Origin: Acidobacteriota bacterium
GTDB lineage: Bacteria > Acidobacteriota > Thermoanaerobaculia > UBA5066
Direction: 5' to 3'
Assembly: GCA_030278895.1 (NCBI GenBank)
Contig: JARXKK010000018.1
Span: 1 to 36,989 of the forward strand
DNA length: 36,989 bases
The translations under genes and the position numbers were made by a program. Positions 27,766 through 36,989 of this stretch are shown one piece after another. The notes below the pieces were generated by a model, which did not search any database, had not been told where the DNA came from, and worked only from the letters and a program-made list of their open reading frames with translations. Position 1 is the stretch's first letter. Every line of letters begins with the position of its first letter.

Positions 27766-27829
27766 CTGTAGCTTCTTCCTAATATAATAAGGAAAATATA
27801 AGATTTCTTAGAATAAATATTGGCTACAG
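27766..27829. promoter_or_regulatory. AT-rich lexA control region with inverted repeats
   Basis: CTGTAGC (27766-27772) and its inverted copy GCTACAG (27823-27829) flank a strikingly AT-rich core. Inside lies TTCCTAATATAATAAGGAA (about 27776-27794), with 5-base perfect arms and an A/T-only centre. Two TATATT boxes on the minus strand (27781-27786 and 27795-27800) could be -10 elements for lexA. Autoregulation by LexA is the usual case, so one of these repeats may be its operator; which one cannot be told from sequence alone. Confidence 0.45.
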
Positions 27830-29127: not shown

Positions 29128-30315
29128 TCAGCTCCGGTAGTCCGCGTTGACCGAGACGTAGGCGTGCCCGAGGTCGCACGAGAGCTTTCGGGCCTTCGCC
29201 TTGCCGGCGCCGAGGTCGACGACGATGGGAACGCGCTCTCGCGAGAAGATCCGCTCGGCTCGACTCTCGCTGTACTTCGCCGGGAGGCCGTTCTTCACGA
29301 GCGTCAACGGGCCGAGCGTCAGCGAGACGCGCGTCGGCGACAGGCGCGCGCCGCTCCGTCCGACGGCGGCGAGAATACGGCCCCAGTTCGGGTCGCCTCC
29401 GGAGAGCGCCGTCTTCACGAGCGGCGAGGTCGCGATCGCGTGCGCCGCCGCCTTCGCCTCGATTGCGTTGTGGGCGCCGACGATCGAGATCTCGAGGACG
29501 CGCGTCGCCCCTTCGCCGTCTCGCACCATCATCCAGGCGAGCGCGCGGCAGACCTTCGTGAGGGCCGCGCGGAACGCGGCGCCTTCACCCGGCTTCCGGA
29601 GCTCGCGCCCGCCCATTTCGCCCGAGGCCATCACGAGGAGCGTGTCGTTCGTGGACGTGTCGCCGTCGACGGAGATCGCGTTGAAGCTCTCTTCCGCGGC
29701 CGCCCGGAGAGTCGCCTTGAGATACGCCGGGCTCGCCGCCGCATCGGTCATGACGAACGCGAGCATCGTCGCCATGTTCGGGTGAATCATGCCCGCGCCC
29801 TTCGCGACGCCCACGACGCGTCCCCGCCGGCCGGCGATGACGAACGACGCCTGGGCCACCTTCGGACCGACGTCCGTCGTGAGGATCGCGTGCGACGCGG
29901 CCTCGAGGCCCGAGGCCGACAGGCGCGCCTTCGCGTCCGGAAGCGCCGCTCGGATCTTCGCGTCCGGCAGGAGAACGCCGATGACGCCCGTCGACGAAAC
30001 GAGCACTTCTTCCTTCGGACATCCGAGAAGGGCGGCCGCGCAGTCGCGCACCCGGCGCGCCGAATCCATCCCCGGCGCGCCCGTAATCGCGTTCGCGCAG
30101 CCGGCGTTTACGACGACGGCGCGCACCCGGCCGCCGCTTCTCTCGAGGTCTCGCGCGCCGAGGACCACCGGAGCTGCCTGAAAGCGGTTGCGCGTAAACA
30201 GGGCCGCGGCGTTCGCGCCCCTTGAAGCCACAAGAAGCGCGAGGTCGAGACGCTTCTTGTCCTTGCGGATGCCCGCGCGAACCCCGGACGCGAGGAAGCC
30301 CCTCGGAAGCCTCAC
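29128..30315 (-). CDS. argJ: Ornithine acetyltransferase / N-acetylglutamate synthase ArgJ
   Basis: ArgJ moves the acetyl group from N-acetylornithine to glutamate, recycling acetyl groups in arginine synthesis; some versions also use acetyl-CoA. The 395-residue precursor cuts itself before T183 in KGAGMIHPNMATML, which becomes the N-terminal nucleophile of the beta chain. Other motifs are VVVNAGCANAITG, VLVSSTGVIG, NAISVDGDTSTNDTLL and GGDPNWGRILAAVGRSG. All are intact. The GTG start at 30315 overlaps the argH stop (GTGA). It is the last gene of the operon. Because argA and argE are absent here, the acetyl cycle probably depends on ArgJ. Confidence 0.95.
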   Translation of the reverse strand: MRLPRGFLASGVRAGIRKDKKRLDLALLVASRGANAAALFTRNRFQAAPVVLGARDLERSGGRVRAVVVNAGCANAITGAPGMDSARRVRDCAAALLGCPKEEVLVSSTGVIGVLLPDAKIRAALPDAKARLSASGLEAASHAILTTDVGPKVAQASFVIAGRRGRVVGVAKGAGMIHPNMATMLAFVMTDAAASPAYLKATLRAAAEESFNAISVDGDTSTNDTLLVMASGEMGGRELRKPGEGAAFRAALTKVCRALAWMMVRDGEGATRVLEISIVGAHNAIEAKAAAHAIATSPLVKTALSGGDPNWGRILAAVGRSGARLSPTRVSLTLGPLTLVKNGLPAKYSESRAERIFSRERVPIVVDLGAGKAKARKLSCDLGHAYVSVNADYRS

Positions 30316-31685
30316 GACGTGCCTCCCGCGAGGCGCCGGACGGCGGCCTTGGCCGCACGTGCCACCTGCCGCGGCGACGTGCCGCCGGTGGAGTCCCGCT
30401 TCGCGAGCGCGCGCCTGACGTCCAGAGCTTGAAGATCCTGGCTGGTGATTTCCTTCGATGGCCCGAGAGCCGCCAGCGTCGCGCCGAGCGCCTCGGCTTC
30501 CGCGATACGGCGGCCGACGACTTCGTGCGCCTCGCGGAAGGGCATGCCCCTCTTCGCGAGCGCGTCCGCAAGCTCGGTCGCGAGCAGGCGGTCGTCCGAG
30601 GCCGCGAGCGCCATGCGCTCGCGGTCGAGGTGGAGCCCTTCGATGAGGGCCGTGAGCGCGGGGAGGGCGACGGCGAGGACGCCGCGCACGCGAAAGACCG
30701 GTTCCTTGTCGAGCTGGAGGTCCTTGTCGTACGCGAGCGGCAGGCCCTTGAGCAGCGCGAGGAGCCCGGTCAGCTCGCCGATCGCGCGGCCGGCGTGTCC
30801 GCGGGCGAGCTCGAGCACGTCCGGGTTCTTCTTCTGCGGCATCCGCGAGGAGCCCGTCGCAAGCGCGTCCGGAAGTGCCGCGAAGCCGAACTCGTCCGAC
30901 GTGAAGGCGATGAGGTCTTCCCCGAGCCGCGAGAGGTGCACGAGAAGGAGCGTCGCGGCGAAGAGAAATTCCGCCGCCGCGTCACGGTCGGAGACCGCGT
31001 CGAGCGAATTCGCCGTGGGGCGGAGGAATCCGAGGCTTCGGGCGAGCGCCTCGCGGTCGATCGGGAGAGGCGTGCCCGAGAGCGCGCCGGAGCCGAGCGG
31101 GCATTCGTCTGCCCGCGAGGCCGCGTTGTCGAAGCGGCCCGCGTCGCGCCTCAGCATCTCCACGTAGGCGAGGCACCAGTGGCCGAACGTGACGGGCTCG
31201 GCGCGTTTCATGTGCGTGTAGCCGGGCATGGGCGTCGCGGCCTCGGCTTCCGCGCGCCGCGCGAGCGCGAGCGCGAGGGCACGCGCGGAGGCGGCGCCCT
31301 CTGCGAGCGCGTCCTTGACGTACAGGCGGAAGTCCGTCGCGACCTGGTCGTTCCGCGAGCGCCCCGTGTGCAATTTTCCCGCGAGCGGACCCACCTTGGC
31401 GGCGAGGCGGGCCTCGACGAAGGAGTGCACGTCCTCGTCGTCCGCGTCGGGCGGAAGGCCCGTCTTCGCGACCTCGACGCCGATCTCCTCGAGGCCGGCC
31501 ACGAGCTTCTTGACGTCGGCGGAAGACAGCACGCCCGCGGCACCGAGCGCTTCGGCCCAGGCGATCGACCCGCGGAGGTCCTCGGCGAGAAGCGCGCGGT
31601 CGAACACGAACGAGTCGTTGAAGGCGCGAAGGGCTTGCGCGGGAGGCTCGGTGAACCGCCCGCCCCAGAGCTGGCGACGGGTCAA
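30312..31685 (-). CDS. argH: Argininosuccinate lyase ArgH
   Basis: ArgH splits argininosuccinate into arginine and fumarate, the last step. The 457-residue protein has the fumarase/aspartase superfamily signature GSSRMPQKKNPD with the mobile-loop catalytic serine, KLHTGRSRNDQVATDFRL, and the catalytic His in PGYTHMKRAEPVTFGHW. Standard length. The TTG start at 31685 begins TRRQLWGGRF, the usual ArgH N-terminus, 4 bases after the argG stop, with AAGGGTGA as ribosome-binding site inside argG. Confidence 0.95.
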   Translation of the reverse strand: MTRRQLWGGRFTEPPAQALRAFNDSFVFDRALLAEDLRGSIAWAEALGAAGVLSSADVKKLVAGLEEIGVEVAKTGLPPDADDEDVHSFVEARLAAKVGPLAGKLHTGRSRNDQVATDFRLYVKDALAEGAASARALALALARRAEAEAATPMPGYTHMKRAEPVTFGHWCLAYVEMLRRDAGRFDNAASRADECPLGSGALSGTPLPIDREALARSLGFLRPTANSLDAVSDRDAAAEFLFAATLLLVHLSRLGEDLIAFTSDEFGFAALPDALATGSSRMPQKKNPDVLELARGHAGRAIGELTGLLALLKGLPLAYDKDLQLDKEPVFRVRGVLAVALPALTALIEGLHLDRERMALAASDDRLLATELADALAKRGMPFREAHEVVGRRIAEAEALGATLAALGPSKEITSQDLQALDVRRALAKRDSTGGTSPRQVARAAKAAVRRLAGGTS

Positions 31686-31689
31686 CGTC

Positions 31690-32925
31690 TCACCCTTCCC
31701 CGGACACGACGGCCTGGTAAGTCGTGCCGGCCTTCAGGCGCAGGCGGCCCTTCGTCGGCAGGCCGAAGAGCCTGATGAATCCGGCCGCGTCGGCCGGCGT
31801 GTAGCCGCGCATGTCGAACGACGCGAGGTGCGCCGAGTAGAGCGCGTGCGGCGACGTGCGTCCGATGACGGAGGACGAGCCCTTGAACAGCTTGAGTGTG
31901 ACGTCGCCGGTCACGGTCGGCATGAGCGCGTTCATGAACGCGTCCAGCGCCTCGCGGAGCGGCGAGAACCATTGGCCGAAGTAGACAAGCTCGGCATAGC
32001 GTGCTGCGAGCTTTTCCTTCTCGTGGGCGCTGTCGCGGTCGAGAGTCAGCGTCTCGAGGGCGCGGAGCGCCATGACGAGAAGGGTGCCGCCGGGCGTCTC
32101 GTAGACGCCGCGCGACTTGATGCCCACGAGGCGGTTCTCGACGATGTCCACGCGGCCCACACCGTGGCGGCCGGCGATCTCGTTGAGCTTCTGGATGAGC
32201 GCCACCGGCGCGAGCTTCTCGCCGTTCACCGCGACGGGCAGCCCCGCCGCGAAGGAGATCGTCACGCGCTCCGGCGTGTCGGGGGCCTTCTCGGGGTCGA
32301 CCGTCAGCTTGAACATCGACTCCTCGGGCTCGAAGCCCGGCTCCTCCAGCGGGCCGCCCTCGTGCGAGATGTGCCAGAGGTTGCGGTCGCGCGAATACAG
32401 GTCCTTCTTCGTGGAGGAGACGGGGATTCCGCGCGCCGCCGCATAGTCGATCGCGTCCTCACGCGACTGGATGTCCCATTCGCGCCAGGGCGCGATGATG
32501 GCGAGCTCTGGCGCGAGCGCCATGTACGCGAGCTCGAACCGGACCTGGTCGTTGCCCTTCCCCGTGCACCCGTGCGAGAAGGCGTCGCACCCGGTCGCGA
32601 GGGCGACCTCCACTTGTTTCTTGGCGATCAGGGGGCGCGCCGTGGCCGTCCCCAGGAGGTAGTCGTGCTCGTAGACGGCGCCGGCCTTCAGGACCGGAAA
32701 GAGGTAGTCGCGCGCGAACTCGTCCTTCGCGTCGATGAGGAAGAACTCCGACGCGCCGGTATTCTTGGCCTTTTCCGCGAGCCCCGCGGTCTCTTCGGCC
32801 TGGCCGACGTCAACCGCGACGGCGACCACCTCGCAGCCGTAGTTTTCCTTGAGCCAGGGAATGATGATGGACGTGTCGAGCCCGCCCGAGTAGGCGAGCG
32901 CGACCTTCTTCACTTTCGGCTTCAC
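31690..32925 (-). CDS. argG: Argininosuccinate synthase ArgG
   Basis: ArgG joins citrulline and aspartate using ATP. The 411-residue protein has the PP-loop AYSGGLDTS near the start, [29 protein letters not shown] and the ATP/citrulline-binding stretches that follow ([15 protein letters not shown]). The GTG at 32925 overlaps the argD stop (GTGA) and follows AAGGAGAAAG, so the start is firm; an open frame continues upstream only as a shadow of argD. Complete at both ends. Confidence 0.96.
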
Positions 32926-34136
32926 GAGACTTTCTCCTTCGGCGCTTCGCGGAGGATTTCTTCGAGCGCCTTGACGAATCCGGATAGCGCCGGGCGGGGC
33001 ACGACGTACGGCGGCAGGAGGCGAAGGACCTTCGTCCGCGAAGTCCCGACGACGAAGCCCTTCGCGAGAAGCGCCTTCTGAACTTCCGCGGCGTCGCGCG
33101 AGAGCTCGATGCCCCACATGAGGCCGCGGCCCCTCACGTCGACGATCTGCCCCCTGCTGCGCTTCTTCGCGCTCCGGAGCTTCTTCCCGAACCACTCGCC
33201 CGTCTCGCGGTTCTTCTCCAGGTAGCCGCCTTCCACGATCTCGTCGAGCGTCTCGAGGCCGAGCCGGCACGCGATGGGATTGCCGCCGAAAGTCGTGCCG
33301 TGGTGCCCCGGGTGGACGAGGGCCGCGATCCGCGCGCCGACGAGAACGACGCCGAGCGGCAGGCCGCCGCCGATGGGCTTGGCGAGCGTCACGAGGTCGG
33401 GCACGACGCCGAGCTCCTGAAAGACGAACATGTGCCCCGTGCGTCCGAGGCCGGACTGGATCTCATCGAGGACGAGCGCCGCGCCCACGCGGTCGGCCGC
33501 GGCCCGCGCGGCTTTCACGTATTCGGGCGTGAGCGGCACGATGCCGCCCTCCCCCATGATGGGTTCCAGGAAGATTGCGGCCGTCTCGGGTGTGACGGCG
33601 CGCTCGAGCGCAGCGACGTCGTTCGGCGGAAGGAAGACCGTTTCACCCACGAGCGGCAGGAACGGCGTCCGATAGCCCTCGTTCCCCGTGAGGGCGAGCG
33701 CACCCATCGTGCGCCCGTGAAAACCGCCCTCGAGCGCGACCATCCGGCTCCGGCCGGGCGCCGCGAGACGCGTGAACTTGATAGCCGCTTCGATCGCCTC
33801 GGTTCCGCTGTTGCAGAAGAAGACGCGCGGCATCCCGGAGAGCTGCGTGAGGCGTTCGGCGAGAAGACCCTGCGCCGGGTGGTAGAAGAGGTTCGAGACG
33901 TGGAGGAGGTGATTCGCCTCCTCGCGGAGCGCCTTCACGAGGCGCGGGTGGCGGTGGCCGAGCGCGTTCACCGCGATGCCGGCGAGAAGGTCCCAGTAGA
34001 CCTTCCCGTCCGCGTCGACGAGCTTCGCGCCCTTGCCGGAGAGCGGGTGGAAGGGCGTGCGCTTGTACGTGCCGAGGATGTTGTCGGCATCGCGCCTTTC
34101 GACGAGAGACGGAGCTTCAGGCGGCGGCTGATGCAA
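32922..34136 (-). CDS. argD: Acetylornithine aminotransferase ArgD
   Basis: A PLP-dependent class III aminotransferase that converts N-acetylglutamate semialdehyde to N-acetylornithine. The 404-residue protein shows [43 protein letters not shown], the PLP lysine in [12 protein letters not shown], and [12 protein letters not shown] chose the TTG at 34136 because GGAGG lies 8 bases upstream inside argB; the gene then overlaps argB by 20 bases. The upstream frame to 34181 has no family similarity. It may also serve lysine synthesis as DapC, as some ArgD enzymes do. Confidence 0.94.
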
Positions 34137-34920
34137 GGCGGGTTCCTCCGATGCCCTCGGCGAGCGCCGAGGCGTGACCATTCGGTCCGGCGATGACGAC
34201 CTGGGAGACGCCCGCCTTCACGGCCTCGAGGCAGGCGACGAGCTTCGGGCGCATGCCGCCGCCGACGGCGCCCGAAGACAGCATGGTCCATGCGGCATCG
34301 GCGTCGAGCTCTCTCACGAGCTTTCCCTCGGCGTCGAGAAGGCCTTCGACGTCCGTGAGGAAGACGAGCCTCTCGGCGCCAAGGGCGATCGCGAGAGCGG
34401 AAGCGGCGGAATCGGCGTTGACGTTGAGGAGCGTGCCCTCCCTCCCGAGCGCGACGGACGCCACGATCGGGAGCAGATCAGCGCCCAGGATGGCGCGGAT
34501 GAGCTTTGGATTCGAGAACGTGACGCGGCCGACGAATCCGAAGTCCACGCCGTCGAGGCGAGGATGGAATTCGGCCCAGAGGGTCTCGCCATCGGCCCCC
34601 GAAAGACCCGCGGAGGTCACGCCGAGAGAGCGAAACTCGGCGACGAGCGACTTGTTCACGAGGCCCGACAGGATCGAGACGACGACGTCGAGCGTCTCGG
34701 GGTCCGTGATCCGGAGCCCGCGGTACGTCTTCTTCGGAATCTTGAGCGCCTGAAGCGACGCGTCGATCCGCTTGCCGCCGCCGTGCACGACGACGATGCG
34801 CTGCCCGGCGGTCCACCGCGCCGCAATCGCGGCGAGCGCCGTCGCCCGCTGCCCGGCGTCTTCGAGGAGGCTGCCGCCCAGCTTGACGACGATGGGACGC
34901 CCGACACGGGTCGCGCTCAC
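34117..34920 (-). CDS. argB: Acetylglutamate kinase ArgB
   Basis: ArgB phosphorylates N-acetylglutamate, often the feedback-controlled step. The 267-residue amino acid kinase has VVKLGGSLLED, VVVHGGGKRIDASL, SAGLSGADGETL, LLNVNADSAASALAIALGAERLVFLTDVEGLLD and GGMRPKLVACLEAVKAGV. The N-terminus is short and lacks the N-terminal helix that makes arginine-sensitive ArgB enzymes hexameric, which suggests an arginine-insensitive form. The GTG at 34920 overlaps the argC stop (GTGA). Confidence 0.94.
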   Translation of the reverse strand: MSATRVGRPIVVKLGGSLLEDAGQRATALAAIAARWTAGQRIVVVHGGGKRIDASLQALKIPKKTYRGLRITDPETLDVVVSILSGLVNKSLVAEFRSLGVTSAGLSGADGETLWAEFHPRLDGVDFGFVGRVTFSNPKLIRAILGADLLPIVASVALGREGTLLNVNADSAASALAIALGAERLVFLTDVEGLLDAEGKLVRELDADAAWTMLSSGAVGGGMRPKLVACLEAVKAGVSQVVIAGPNGHASALAEGIGGTRLASAAA

Positions 34921-35945
34921 GAGAGGCCCTCCGTCTCCGGATGGCCGAACACCCGGTTCATGTTCTGCACGGCCTGGGACGCCGCGCCCTTCAGAAGGTT
35001 GTCGATGACCGAAACGAGGACGCCGCGCCCGCCCGGGAGGAGCGCGAAGCCGATGTCGGCGCGGGGCGTCCCGACGACGTCGCGCAGTTCGGGCAGCTCG
35101 CCTGCCGGCCGCACGCGGACGAACGGCTGGCCGTCGTAGCGCGCGAAGGCGGCCGCGACGTCCGCGGCGCCGACGCCCGCGCGAAACGTGACGTGCAGCG
35201 TCGTGAGAATTCCGCGCACGACGGGGAGCAGATGCGGCACGAAGACGAACGGGGCCTCGTGAGACAGGCCGAGCTCCTGCCGCATCTCGGGTTCGTGCCG
35301 GTGGACGCCGACGCCGTAGGCTTTGAAGTTGCCGTCGAGCTCCGAGAAGGAGTACGCGACGTCGCTCTTCTTCCCCGCCCCCGACACACCGCTCTTGCTG
35401 TCGCAGACGACCGCTTCGCCCGGCGCGAGGAGAGCTAGCAGGGGTTTGAGCGCGAGGAGCACCGACGTCGGGTAGCACCCGGGGTTCGCGACGAGCCGGG
35501 CACCGGCGAGCTCCTCGCCGCACCACTCCGTGAGGCCGTAGACCGCCTCGGCGAGGAGGCCCGGCGCCGGATGCTCGAACCCGTACCACTTCGGATAGTC
35601 GGCCGCGTCCCGGAGGCGGAACGCCCCCGAGATGTCGATGACCTTCGCGCCCGAGTCGAGAATCTTCGGCGCGACTTCGGCCGACGTTTCGTTCGGCGTC
35701 GCGAGGAAGACGACGTCGGGCCGGCTCGCGTCGAGGCGCCCCTGGGAGAACGGCTCGGCGTCCGGGCCGGCCGCCCTACCGAGGAGCGGGTGCAGACGCG
35801 CGAACGGAACCGGCCGCACGTCCTTCTTCCCGGAGGAGAACACGGACACGATCTCGGCGTGGGAATGTCGCGCGAGCAGGACGCACAGCTCCGCTCCCGA
35901 GTACCCCGTGGCGCCGAGGATCGCGGCCCTCGTCTTTCGCTCCAT
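34917..35945 (-). CDS. argC: N-acetyl-gamma-glutamyl-phosphate reductase ArgC
   Basis: ArgC reduces acetylglutamyl phosphate to the semialdehyde with NADPH. The 342-residue protein has the nucleotide-binding ILGATGYSGAEL, FLATPNETSAEVAP, the active-site cysteine in ANPGCYPTS, and the catalytic His region VGVHRHEPEM. The ATG at 35945 lies 11 bases after the argR stop, with an A-rich GGGAAAAAG stretch before it. It is the first enzyme gene of the operon and probably co-transcribed with argR. Confidence 0.95.
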   Translation of the reverse strand: MERKTRAAILGATGYSGAELCVLLARHSHAEIVSVFSSGKKDVRPVPFARLHPLLGRAAGPDAEPFSQGRLDASRPDVVFLATPNETSAEVAPKILDSGAKVIDISGAFRLRDAADYPKWYGFEHPAPGLLAEAVYGLTEWCGEELAGARLVANPGCYPTSVLLALKPLLALLAPGEAVVCDSKSGVSGAGKKSDVAYSFSELDGNFKAYGVGVHRHEPEMRQELGLSHEAPFVFVPHLLPVVRGILTTLHVTFRAGVGAADVAAAFARYDGQPFVRVRPAGELPELRDVVGTPRADIGFALLPGGRGVLVSVIDNLLKGAASQAVQNMNRVFGHPETEGLS

Positions 35946-35956
35946 CTTTTTCCCGT

Positions 35957-36454
35957 TCAACCGCGCCCCCGGCGGGCGCGTCCCGCGGCGAGGCCCGGCT
36001 CGAGGCGGCGCGCCAGACGGTTTGCGGCCGCGATCGTGGCCGCCGCGAGGAAGATCGTGTCGTCCCCGGCGATCGTCCCGACGACCCCTTCGAGCGCAGC
36101 CTCGTCCAGGGCGCGTGCCACGGGATGGGCGGCCGCCGGCGGCGTCTTGACGACGACGAGATTGCCCGCCGCCCGCACGCCCAGAACCCACTCGCGGAGC
36201 GCGCGCTCGAGGCGCTCCTCGGAGCGGGCCCGAAGCTCGCCTTCGGTCGTCGACTCCTCGCCCGGGACCACGTACCCGCCGGAGGTCTTCGCGAGGCCGA
36301 GGTCCTTGAGGTCCCTCGAGAGCGTGGGCTGCGCCACGTCGATGCCGCGGCGCGCGAGGCGATGCTGCAGCTCCTCCTGCGAGTGCACCGCGCCGTCGCG
36401 TATGAGCTTGAGGATCTCGTCGCGGCGCCGGAGCGCCGTCGCATGACTATTCAC
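35957..36454 (-). CDS. argR: Arginine repressor ArgR
   Basis: ArgR is a hexameric regulator that binds DNA when arginine is bound. The 165-residue protein has the winged helix (residues 10-60) with the Ser-Arg DNA-reading motif in AQPTLSRDLKDLGL (S46, R47) and the C-terminal oligomer/arginine domain with GTIAGDDTIF carrying the Asp pair that contacts arginine. A short Arg-rich tail follows. The GTG at 36454 is the start; no Shine-Dalgarno sequence is present and the -10 box is 7 bases away, so the mRNA is probably leaderless. Leading the arg operon, it likely controls itself and the six enzyme genes through the palindrome over its promoter. Confidence 0.93.
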   Translation of the reverse strand: MNSHATALRRRDEILKLIRDGAVHSQEELQHRLARRGIDVAQPTLSRDLKDLGLAKTSGGYVVPGEESTTEGELRARSEERLERALREWVLGVRAAGNLVVVKTPPAAAHPVARALDEAALEGVVGTIAGDDTIFLAAATIAAANRLARRLEPGLAAGRARRGRG

Positions 36455-36469
36455 GTTTGTGAATATTCA
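36449..36469. promoter_or_regulatory. ArgR operator (ARG-box-like) over argR promoter and start
   Basis: ATTCACGTTTGTGAAT (36449-36464) has two perfect 6-base arms around GTTT. It runs into TGAATATTCA (36460-36469), itself a perfect 10-base palindrome, and a related TGACTATTCA lies at 36444-36453. TGAAT/ATTCA half-sites match the known ArgR box. The site covers the -10 box, expected start point and start codon, the classic place for autorepression. Confidence 0.65.
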
Positions 36470-36490
36470 TTCATTTGCTCCGCGCGTCAA
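36462..36490 (-). promoter_or_regulatory. Promoter of the arg operon
   Basis: On the minus strand TTGACG (36490-36485), a 17-base spacer and AATATT (36467-36462) fit a housekeeping promoter. The -10 box lies 7 bases before the argR GTG and within the palindromes. Confidence 0.6.
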
Positions 36491-36539
36491 GCATTTTCTT
36501 TTCGTGACGCAGGGCACGCGGCGGGAGGTCGCGGAGGAC

Positions 36540-36545
36540 TAGAAT
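36540..36545 (+). promoter_or_regulatory. Possible -10 box of the sigma factor gene
   Basis: TAGAAT lies 6 bases before the ATG of a short leader frame at 36552. No -35 box is evident 17 bases upstream. The expected start point is at or beside that ATG. Confidence 0.35.
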
Positions 36546-36551
36546 TCACGC

Positions 36552-36584
36552 ATGGGGCACGCTTACCGACGGACCTCTCCGTGA
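36552..36584 (+). CDS. Possible 10-codon leader peptide
   Basis: ATG at 36552 opens a 10-codon frame (MGHAYRRTSP) whose TGA overlaps the ATG of the sigma factor gene (TGATG). With the -10 box just upstream it could be a leaderless leader frame that couples translation to the sigma gene. A chance frame is equally possible; the peptide has no recognisable feature. Confidence 0.25.
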   Translation: MGHAYRRTSP

Positions 36585-36989
36585 TGAGTCCGACCCGCTC
36601 TTCCGAGTTCGAGGCCGAGATCGGGCGGTTGCCGGAGAAGTTGCGCCGCTTCTTCCTGTCCCGGGGCGTGCGCACCGAGGACGACGCGAGAGACCTCGCG
36701 CAGGAAACGCTTCTGCGCGTCCTTCAGAGGCTCTCACGGGGCGAGCTTCTCGATTCGCCGGAGGCGTTTTCGCTCGGGGTGGCCAAGAACGTCTTCTTCG
36801 AATACTGCCGCCGGGTGGCGAAAGCCCATGCTCACGACGGCCTTTCGGGCGCGGTCGATCTCGCCGGAGGCGAAGATCCCCTGACCGAGGCGCTCGCCTC
36901 GAGTCAGGCCATTCGATTCCGGCGGGCGCTCGATCTCCTGCCCGAGCGCATGAAGAGCCTCCTCCTCAAGCGGTTCGTGGAGGAGGTGC
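36584..36989 (+). CDS. ECF-type sigma-70 factor (3' end outside window)
   Basis: 135 residues are visible before the window ends. The region RTEDDARDLAQETLLRVLQRL matches sigma region 2.1-2.2 and AFSLGVAKNVFFEYCRRVAK matches 2.3-2.4; ALDLLPERMKSLLLKRFVEE begins region 4. No sigma region 1 or 3 is present, so it is of the ECF (group 4) type, which directs RNA polymerase to a small regulon. The start is the ATG at 36584 or the GTG directly before it at 36581; neither has a Shine-Dalgarno sequence. It diverges from argR. No anti-sigma gene can be judged because the window ends. Confidence 0.82.
   Translation, partial: MSPTRSSEFEAEIGRLPEKLRRFFLSRGVRTEDDARDLAQETLLRVLQRLSRGELLDSPEAFSLGVAKNVFFEYCRRVAKAHAHDGLSGAVDLAGGEDPLTEALASSQAIRFRRALDLLPERMKSLLLKRFVEEV

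Follow-up and report, generated by a model that had tools for sequence, protein, structure and literature searches.

In a window of 36,989 nucleotides (the whole stretch of DNA that was analysed) from an uncultured acidobacterium of the class Thermoanaerobaculia, the arginine repressor gene argR appears to start inside a pair of ARG boxes. With a probability of about 80%, we propose that this pair is a tandem operator lying over the argR promoter and first codons, and that argR heads a leaderless operon that would be repressed by arginine. The boxes, their spacing, the promoter hexamers, the start codon, the gene order and the conservation of this layout are read directly from the DNA. The genes are arranged in the order argR-C-B-D-G-H-J, all on the (-) strand, with argR first (Table 1).

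Table 1. Features of the argR operon and of its control region in the window.
Feature	Coordinates	Strand	Basis or remark
-35 hexamer TTGACG	36485..36490	(-)	promoter scan; TTGAC conserved in relatives
-10 hexamer AATATT	36462..36467	(-)	promoter scan, 4/6; inside box 1
ARG box 1, AATGAATGAATATTCACA on the argR strand	36458..36475	(-)	10/10 core matches; covers the -10 hexamer
Long palindrome ATTCACGTTTGTGAAT	36449..36464	(.)	seam: right half of box 1 and left half of box 2
ARG box 2, CGTGAATAGTCATGCGAC on the argR strand	36438..36455	(-)	8/10 core matches; covers the start codon and codons 2-5
argR GTG start codon	36452..36454	(-)	box-2 positions 2-4
argR, arginine repressor, 165 aa	35957..36454	(-)	profile matches and solved relatives
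argC	34917..35945	(-)	TIGR01850, 3.4e-108; ATG start at 35945 read by eye
argB	34117..34893	(-)	TIGR00761, 4.3e-65; upper limit is the HMM match start
argD	32922..34181	(-)	TIGR00707, 1e-125
argG	31690..32916	(-)	PRK00509, 1.5e-173; upper limit is the HMM match start
argH	30312..31685	(-)	TIGR00838, 3e-152
argJ	29128..30315	(-)	PRK05388, 1.2e-141

The initial annotation had named the first gene as that of an arginine repressor, and its product gave full-length matches to the ArgR-family profiles PRK03341 (2.5e-37) and TIGR01529 (2.7e-34) across residues 4-152, at bit scores of 128.1 and 118.3 that lie below the curated cut-offs of 200 and 130.45, respectively. The closest solved sequence was 3ere (7e-25). 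ArgR could be aligned with 3ere (residues 9-148) and 1b4a (residues 10-151), GTIAGDDT included, and it has the winged-helix and the arginine-binding domains with the GDDT motif; these profiles and alignments bear out the assignment. Residues G130, D132 and T133, which we take to bind arginine, were invariant across 21 relatives. ArgR here is probably an ordinary regulator, for which the family property of binding to ARG boxes as an arginine-dependent hexamer is predicted.

The ARG box consensus of E. coli is the 18-bp wnTGAATwwwwATTCAnw, against which the core matches of Table 1 were counted. Two palindromic 18-bp boxes of the form TGAATN4ATTCA stand in tandem upstream of and within argR, with a period of 20 bp (about two helical turns) and a 2-bp gap (AA). 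A PWM trained on 42 boxes from 21 argR loci, all outside this genus, gave held-out scores of 25.6 for box 1 and 15.1 for box 2, and the tandem scored 40.6 versus 10.5 at the next place in the window. The exact word TGAATN4ATTCA occurs once in the 3.47-Mb assembly, at the operator site. A single ARG-like word, TTAGAATAAATATTGGCT, lies downstream of argJ (27808-27825; PWM score 15.5, second best in the window), and no good partner box for it was found in a PWM scan of the window.

Earlier reading of this region had taken two palindromes, ATTCACGTTTGTGAAT (0.04 matches expected per window with up to three mismatches allowed) and TGAATATTCA (36460-36469), as ARG boxes that overlap each other, the -10 box, the expected start point and the GTG. 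The overlaps agree with the coordinates and ARG boxes are present, but the units of binding would be 36458-36475 and 36438-36455 rather than the named palindromes. The palindrome ATTCACGTTTGTGAAT arises because the neighbouring half-sites of boxes 1 and 2 are complementary to each other, and it is no separate element. Since this seam forms a perfect 6-bp inverted repeat, its function might lie in a hairpin of the RNA at the start codon, with no DNA operator involved, which we consider very improbable: among 25 aligned rows, four of five seam pairs were broken in 2 to 7 rows and the fifth was invariant, with no compensatory change, and in a leaderless gene the upstream arm would lie outside the transcript. 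The hairpin was rejected on this absence of covariation.

A sigma-70-like promoter (TTGACG, 17-nt spacer, AATATT; 9/12 matches) precedes argR, where 0.1 such matches were expected between 36300 and 36700. Its -10 hexamer occupies the positions 13 to 8 nt before the GTG, with 7 nt from the end of the -10 to the GTG; from the promoter spacing, the predicted transcription start is 36454 or a position no more than about 3 nt away. Little choice of start codon is left, because an in-frame stop lies five codons upstream of the GTG and no further in-frame start comes before codon 23, inside the DNA-binding domain. None of five SD-like four-letter words occurred within the 21 nt upstream of box-2 position 2, in the window or in 28 other rows. 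The longest SD match reached at least 4 at 0 of 25 argR starts versus 16 of 23 argF starts, 9 of 19 carA starts and 129 of 500 random places. With the -10 in the range of about 7-13 nt upstream of the start codon and the SD lacking, initiation at argR is likely leaderless, and the leaderless promoter put forward in the initial annotation is the simplest reading of these features.

The same ArgR operator could instead serve a leadered transcript, either from a promoter farther upstream, with ArgR acting as a roadblock, or through a short SD-less leader that is translated. About 130 bp separate argR from the divergent ORF at 36584, the -10 is weak, and in L253 and L027 the right half of box 2 seems, by eye, to contain the start codon, so that a short leader would result. 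This alternative is unlikely in view of the missing SD, of the single promoter-like match in 36300-36700, and of the fixed distance between TTGAC and the start codon, which is 36-39 nt in all 25 aligned loci described below. The divergent ORF itself (36584-36988, (+) strand) resembles an ECF sigma factor and is cut by the window end; a similar ORF adjoins argR in three named loci of the same genus (L113-L115, 90-98% identity) and was unmatched beside argR in the remaining named loci listed.

In the leaderless reading, a sigma-70-type promoter would set the first transcribed nucleotide at the argR start codon or no more than about 3 nt from it, yielding an mRNA that begins with the gene. Under ample arginine, a hexamer of ArgR with bound arginine would occupy both boxes and shield the -10, the start point and the start codon, so that RNA polymerase would be blocked and the whole argR-C-B-D-G-H-J operon repressed, argR included. 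ArgR binding, the leaderless start and repression by arginine are what we infer from the arrangement, and autoregulation of argR is likely.

An ArgR match was found in 43 of 60 related genomes, and 29 of the 30 listed argR loci were inspected (L031 was dropped because its frame lies at a contig end). The 20-bp period was best or tied-best in 25 of these 29 loci, the exceptions being L008, L027, L032 and L033. The operator alignment has 25 rows and leaves out L026, L027, L032 and L033: L026 (on a contig shared with L133) has the tandem with no start codon inside, L027 seems by eye to start at box-2 positions 12-14, and no tandem was found in L032 or L033. In 32 of 34 loci (the 25 aligned and nine named ones) an ATG or GTG occupies box-2 positions 2-4; L011 and L013 have CCG there and start one codon upstream, and in several relatives an in-frame start one or two codons farther upstream offers an alternative. 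Since box 2 is also coding sequence, the first residues of ArgR are fixed as V/M-N-x-H/Y-A/S. Asn and His codons within codons 2-5 ended in T in 64 of 64 cases versus 42 of 131 elsewhere in argR, which argues that codon choice in codons 2-5 is constrained by the DNA word. Because the genomes are related, the counts given here for the relatives are not independent of one another.

A 38-bp operator model, applied with strict filters that lose weak sites, matched 29 of 148 genomes of the class at one place each (some read on both strands), and argR stood beside every match that was fetched. Conservation of the palindrome upstream of argR in relatives had been proposed as a check, and it holds in these genomes. 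Strong ArgR matches (E<1e-34) occurred in 27 of the 60 relatives; 25 of these 27 have the operator, and the model had no match among the remaining 33. Because 25 of the 29 matched genomes were used to build the model, the informative parts are the empty 33, the newly matched G062-G065 and the lack of second sites. In family f8 of the class (G024 and G048, for example) only distant ArgR matches, of about 40% identity, were present, and the 38-bp model scan found no operator of the argR type there. Downstream of argR, argC was found in 27 of the 32 nearest named loci; of the five others, L119 stops too soon and the four Rokubacteria loci lack argC at that place.

Between -250 and +60 of the match start, no ARG box was found at 36 argF or 26 carA loci, among them those of the window's own genus (in part of these genomes a close ArgR is lacking); the best PWM score there was 8.6, and every training box scored at least 12.3. 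Boxes at argF and carAB, which had been expected, are thus present at 0 of 36 and 0 of 26 loci, and a whole arg operon under ArgR would mean argR-C-B-D-G-H-J, with argF and carAB left out. Elsewhere in the genus, 29 stretches outside argR carry words with one mismatch (L232 and L245 share their context). In each of the 29, the best place falls within a frame that is free of stops for at least 160 codons, with no partner box found beside it; in at least two stretches this place differs from the word. These single near-matches look like chance. Because argF and carAB have no boxes and the single near-matches are chance-like, the predicted regulon is one operon that contains its own regulator, and a reach of ArgR beyond it is not supported.

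The argR boxes could themselves be chance AT-rich words in a GC-rich genome, given that promoters are AT-rich and that ATGAAT and ATTCAT are simple words. We regard this as less probable still than the hairpin, because the held-out PWM scores stand far above the rest of the window, the boxes are conserved across genera and families, and the best places in the single near-match stretches of the genus lie in stop-free frames without partner boxes.

Tandem boxes of the same period were also found beside arg genes in other Acidobacteriota, at 20 of 20 chosen places; this is no rate, because the places were picked by eye for AT-rich spacers. The pattern behind them was loose, with R forced at the place of the start codon, and it matched 86 of 396 genomes versus 3 with the reversed control. 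When L252 and L253 are added to the 20 places, box-2 positions 2-4 are occupied by an open in-frame start codon in six: argC in L252, L285, L297 and L298, from three other Acidobacteriota families (L298 has, by eye, a GTG farther in as a possible alternative start), and argF in L284, where the case is clear, and in L286, where it is doubtful, with a later ATG preceded by an SD-like word. Of 48 more distant named loci, one has the start-in-box layout, at a Propionibacteriaceae argC (L173). In a Phycisphaerales argR locus (L149, 4970-5010) a probable ATG lies, by eye, inside an ARG-like box in a different register.

The layout was also found by PWM scan at four Rokubacteria argR loci (L116, L117, L126 and L143), and the argR operators of Rokubacteria and Acidiferrales scored 28 to 32. 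This extension comes from the weaker method, because the tandem model gave nothing at E<=1 on five Rokubacteria and Acidiferrales genomes and the PWM scan alone was positive. In these four loci argR is about 60% identical to that of the window with no argC behind it, and in three of them an argD-like gene (34-36% identity) follows. When 46 ArgR rows were placed in a tree, the three Rokubacteria tested nested among Thermoanaerobaculia with weak support, so that a transfer between phyla or a binning error is possible.

On balance we favour, with less confidence than the operator itself, a fusion of operator and start: in leaderless arg genes the downstream ARG box would form the first five codons and so write the N-terminus M/V-N/H-x-H/Y/N-A/S. 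This arrangement would have persisted at argR throughout Thermoanaerobaculia and in a few Rokubacteria and would recur at argC and argF, through reuse or repeated evolution of one promoter design. The findings matter in four respects: (i) Thermoanaerobaculia gain a concrete predicted ArgR site and a one-operon regulon; (ii) in a compact design, the functions of promoter, operator and coding sequence would be combined in one 38-bp stretch; (iii) in such genomes DNA binding, besides protein function, would shape how ArgR, ArgC and ArgF begin at their N-termini; and (iv) start codons in such genomes could be read off the operator.

In the openly licensed literature we found no report of Acidobacteria ArgR regulons or of a leaderless argR, and a search of it for an ArgR operator overlapping a start codon, or for ArgR at the argC translation start, was empty. 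The available portion of an E. coli and Klebsiella start-site study does not name argR as leaderless. The system resembles that of E. coli ArgR in the repressor family, the 18-bp consensus and the two tandem boxes over a promoter; in E. coli argR itself the gap is 2 bp. The two 18-bp ARG boxes of E. coli have a canonical gap of 3 bp (excerpts of PMC6640053 and PMC6245113), whereas here the gap is 2 bp and the start codon lies inside box 2. E. coli ArgR controls many operons, carAB and argF included, in contrast to the single operon here. Autoregulation of argR is a core feature of gammaproteobacterial ArgR regulons (PMC5343134, in part). In leaderless genes a -10-like signal lies at about 12 bp, and such genes make up 13.3% on average in three Acidobacteria (PMC3160421, in part). 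At argR the -10-like signal spans nucleotides 13 to 8 upstream of the start codon, which fits this, but here, unlike in ordinary leaderless genes, the -10 and the start codon would also be parts of a repressor site.

In S. coelicolor, ARG boxes of 20 nt are adjacent without separation, and box 2 of argG lies at -2 from the start codon, on a fragment that is shifted by ArgR (PMC5839063; PMC3293853, in part). The argG and argC sites there share the 20-bp period, and at argG also a box overlapping a start codon, with the layout described here. In contrast, S. coelicolor argR is last in argCJBDR and several arg operons are controlled, whereas argR comes first in the present operon and, throughout a class, has its start codon at the left end of box 2. 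Both autorepression and overlap with a start codon have precedents, in the argR of gammaproteobacteria and in Streptomyces argG, respectively. ArgR control is thus known, and the conserved placing of the start codon in the operator is a variant of it.
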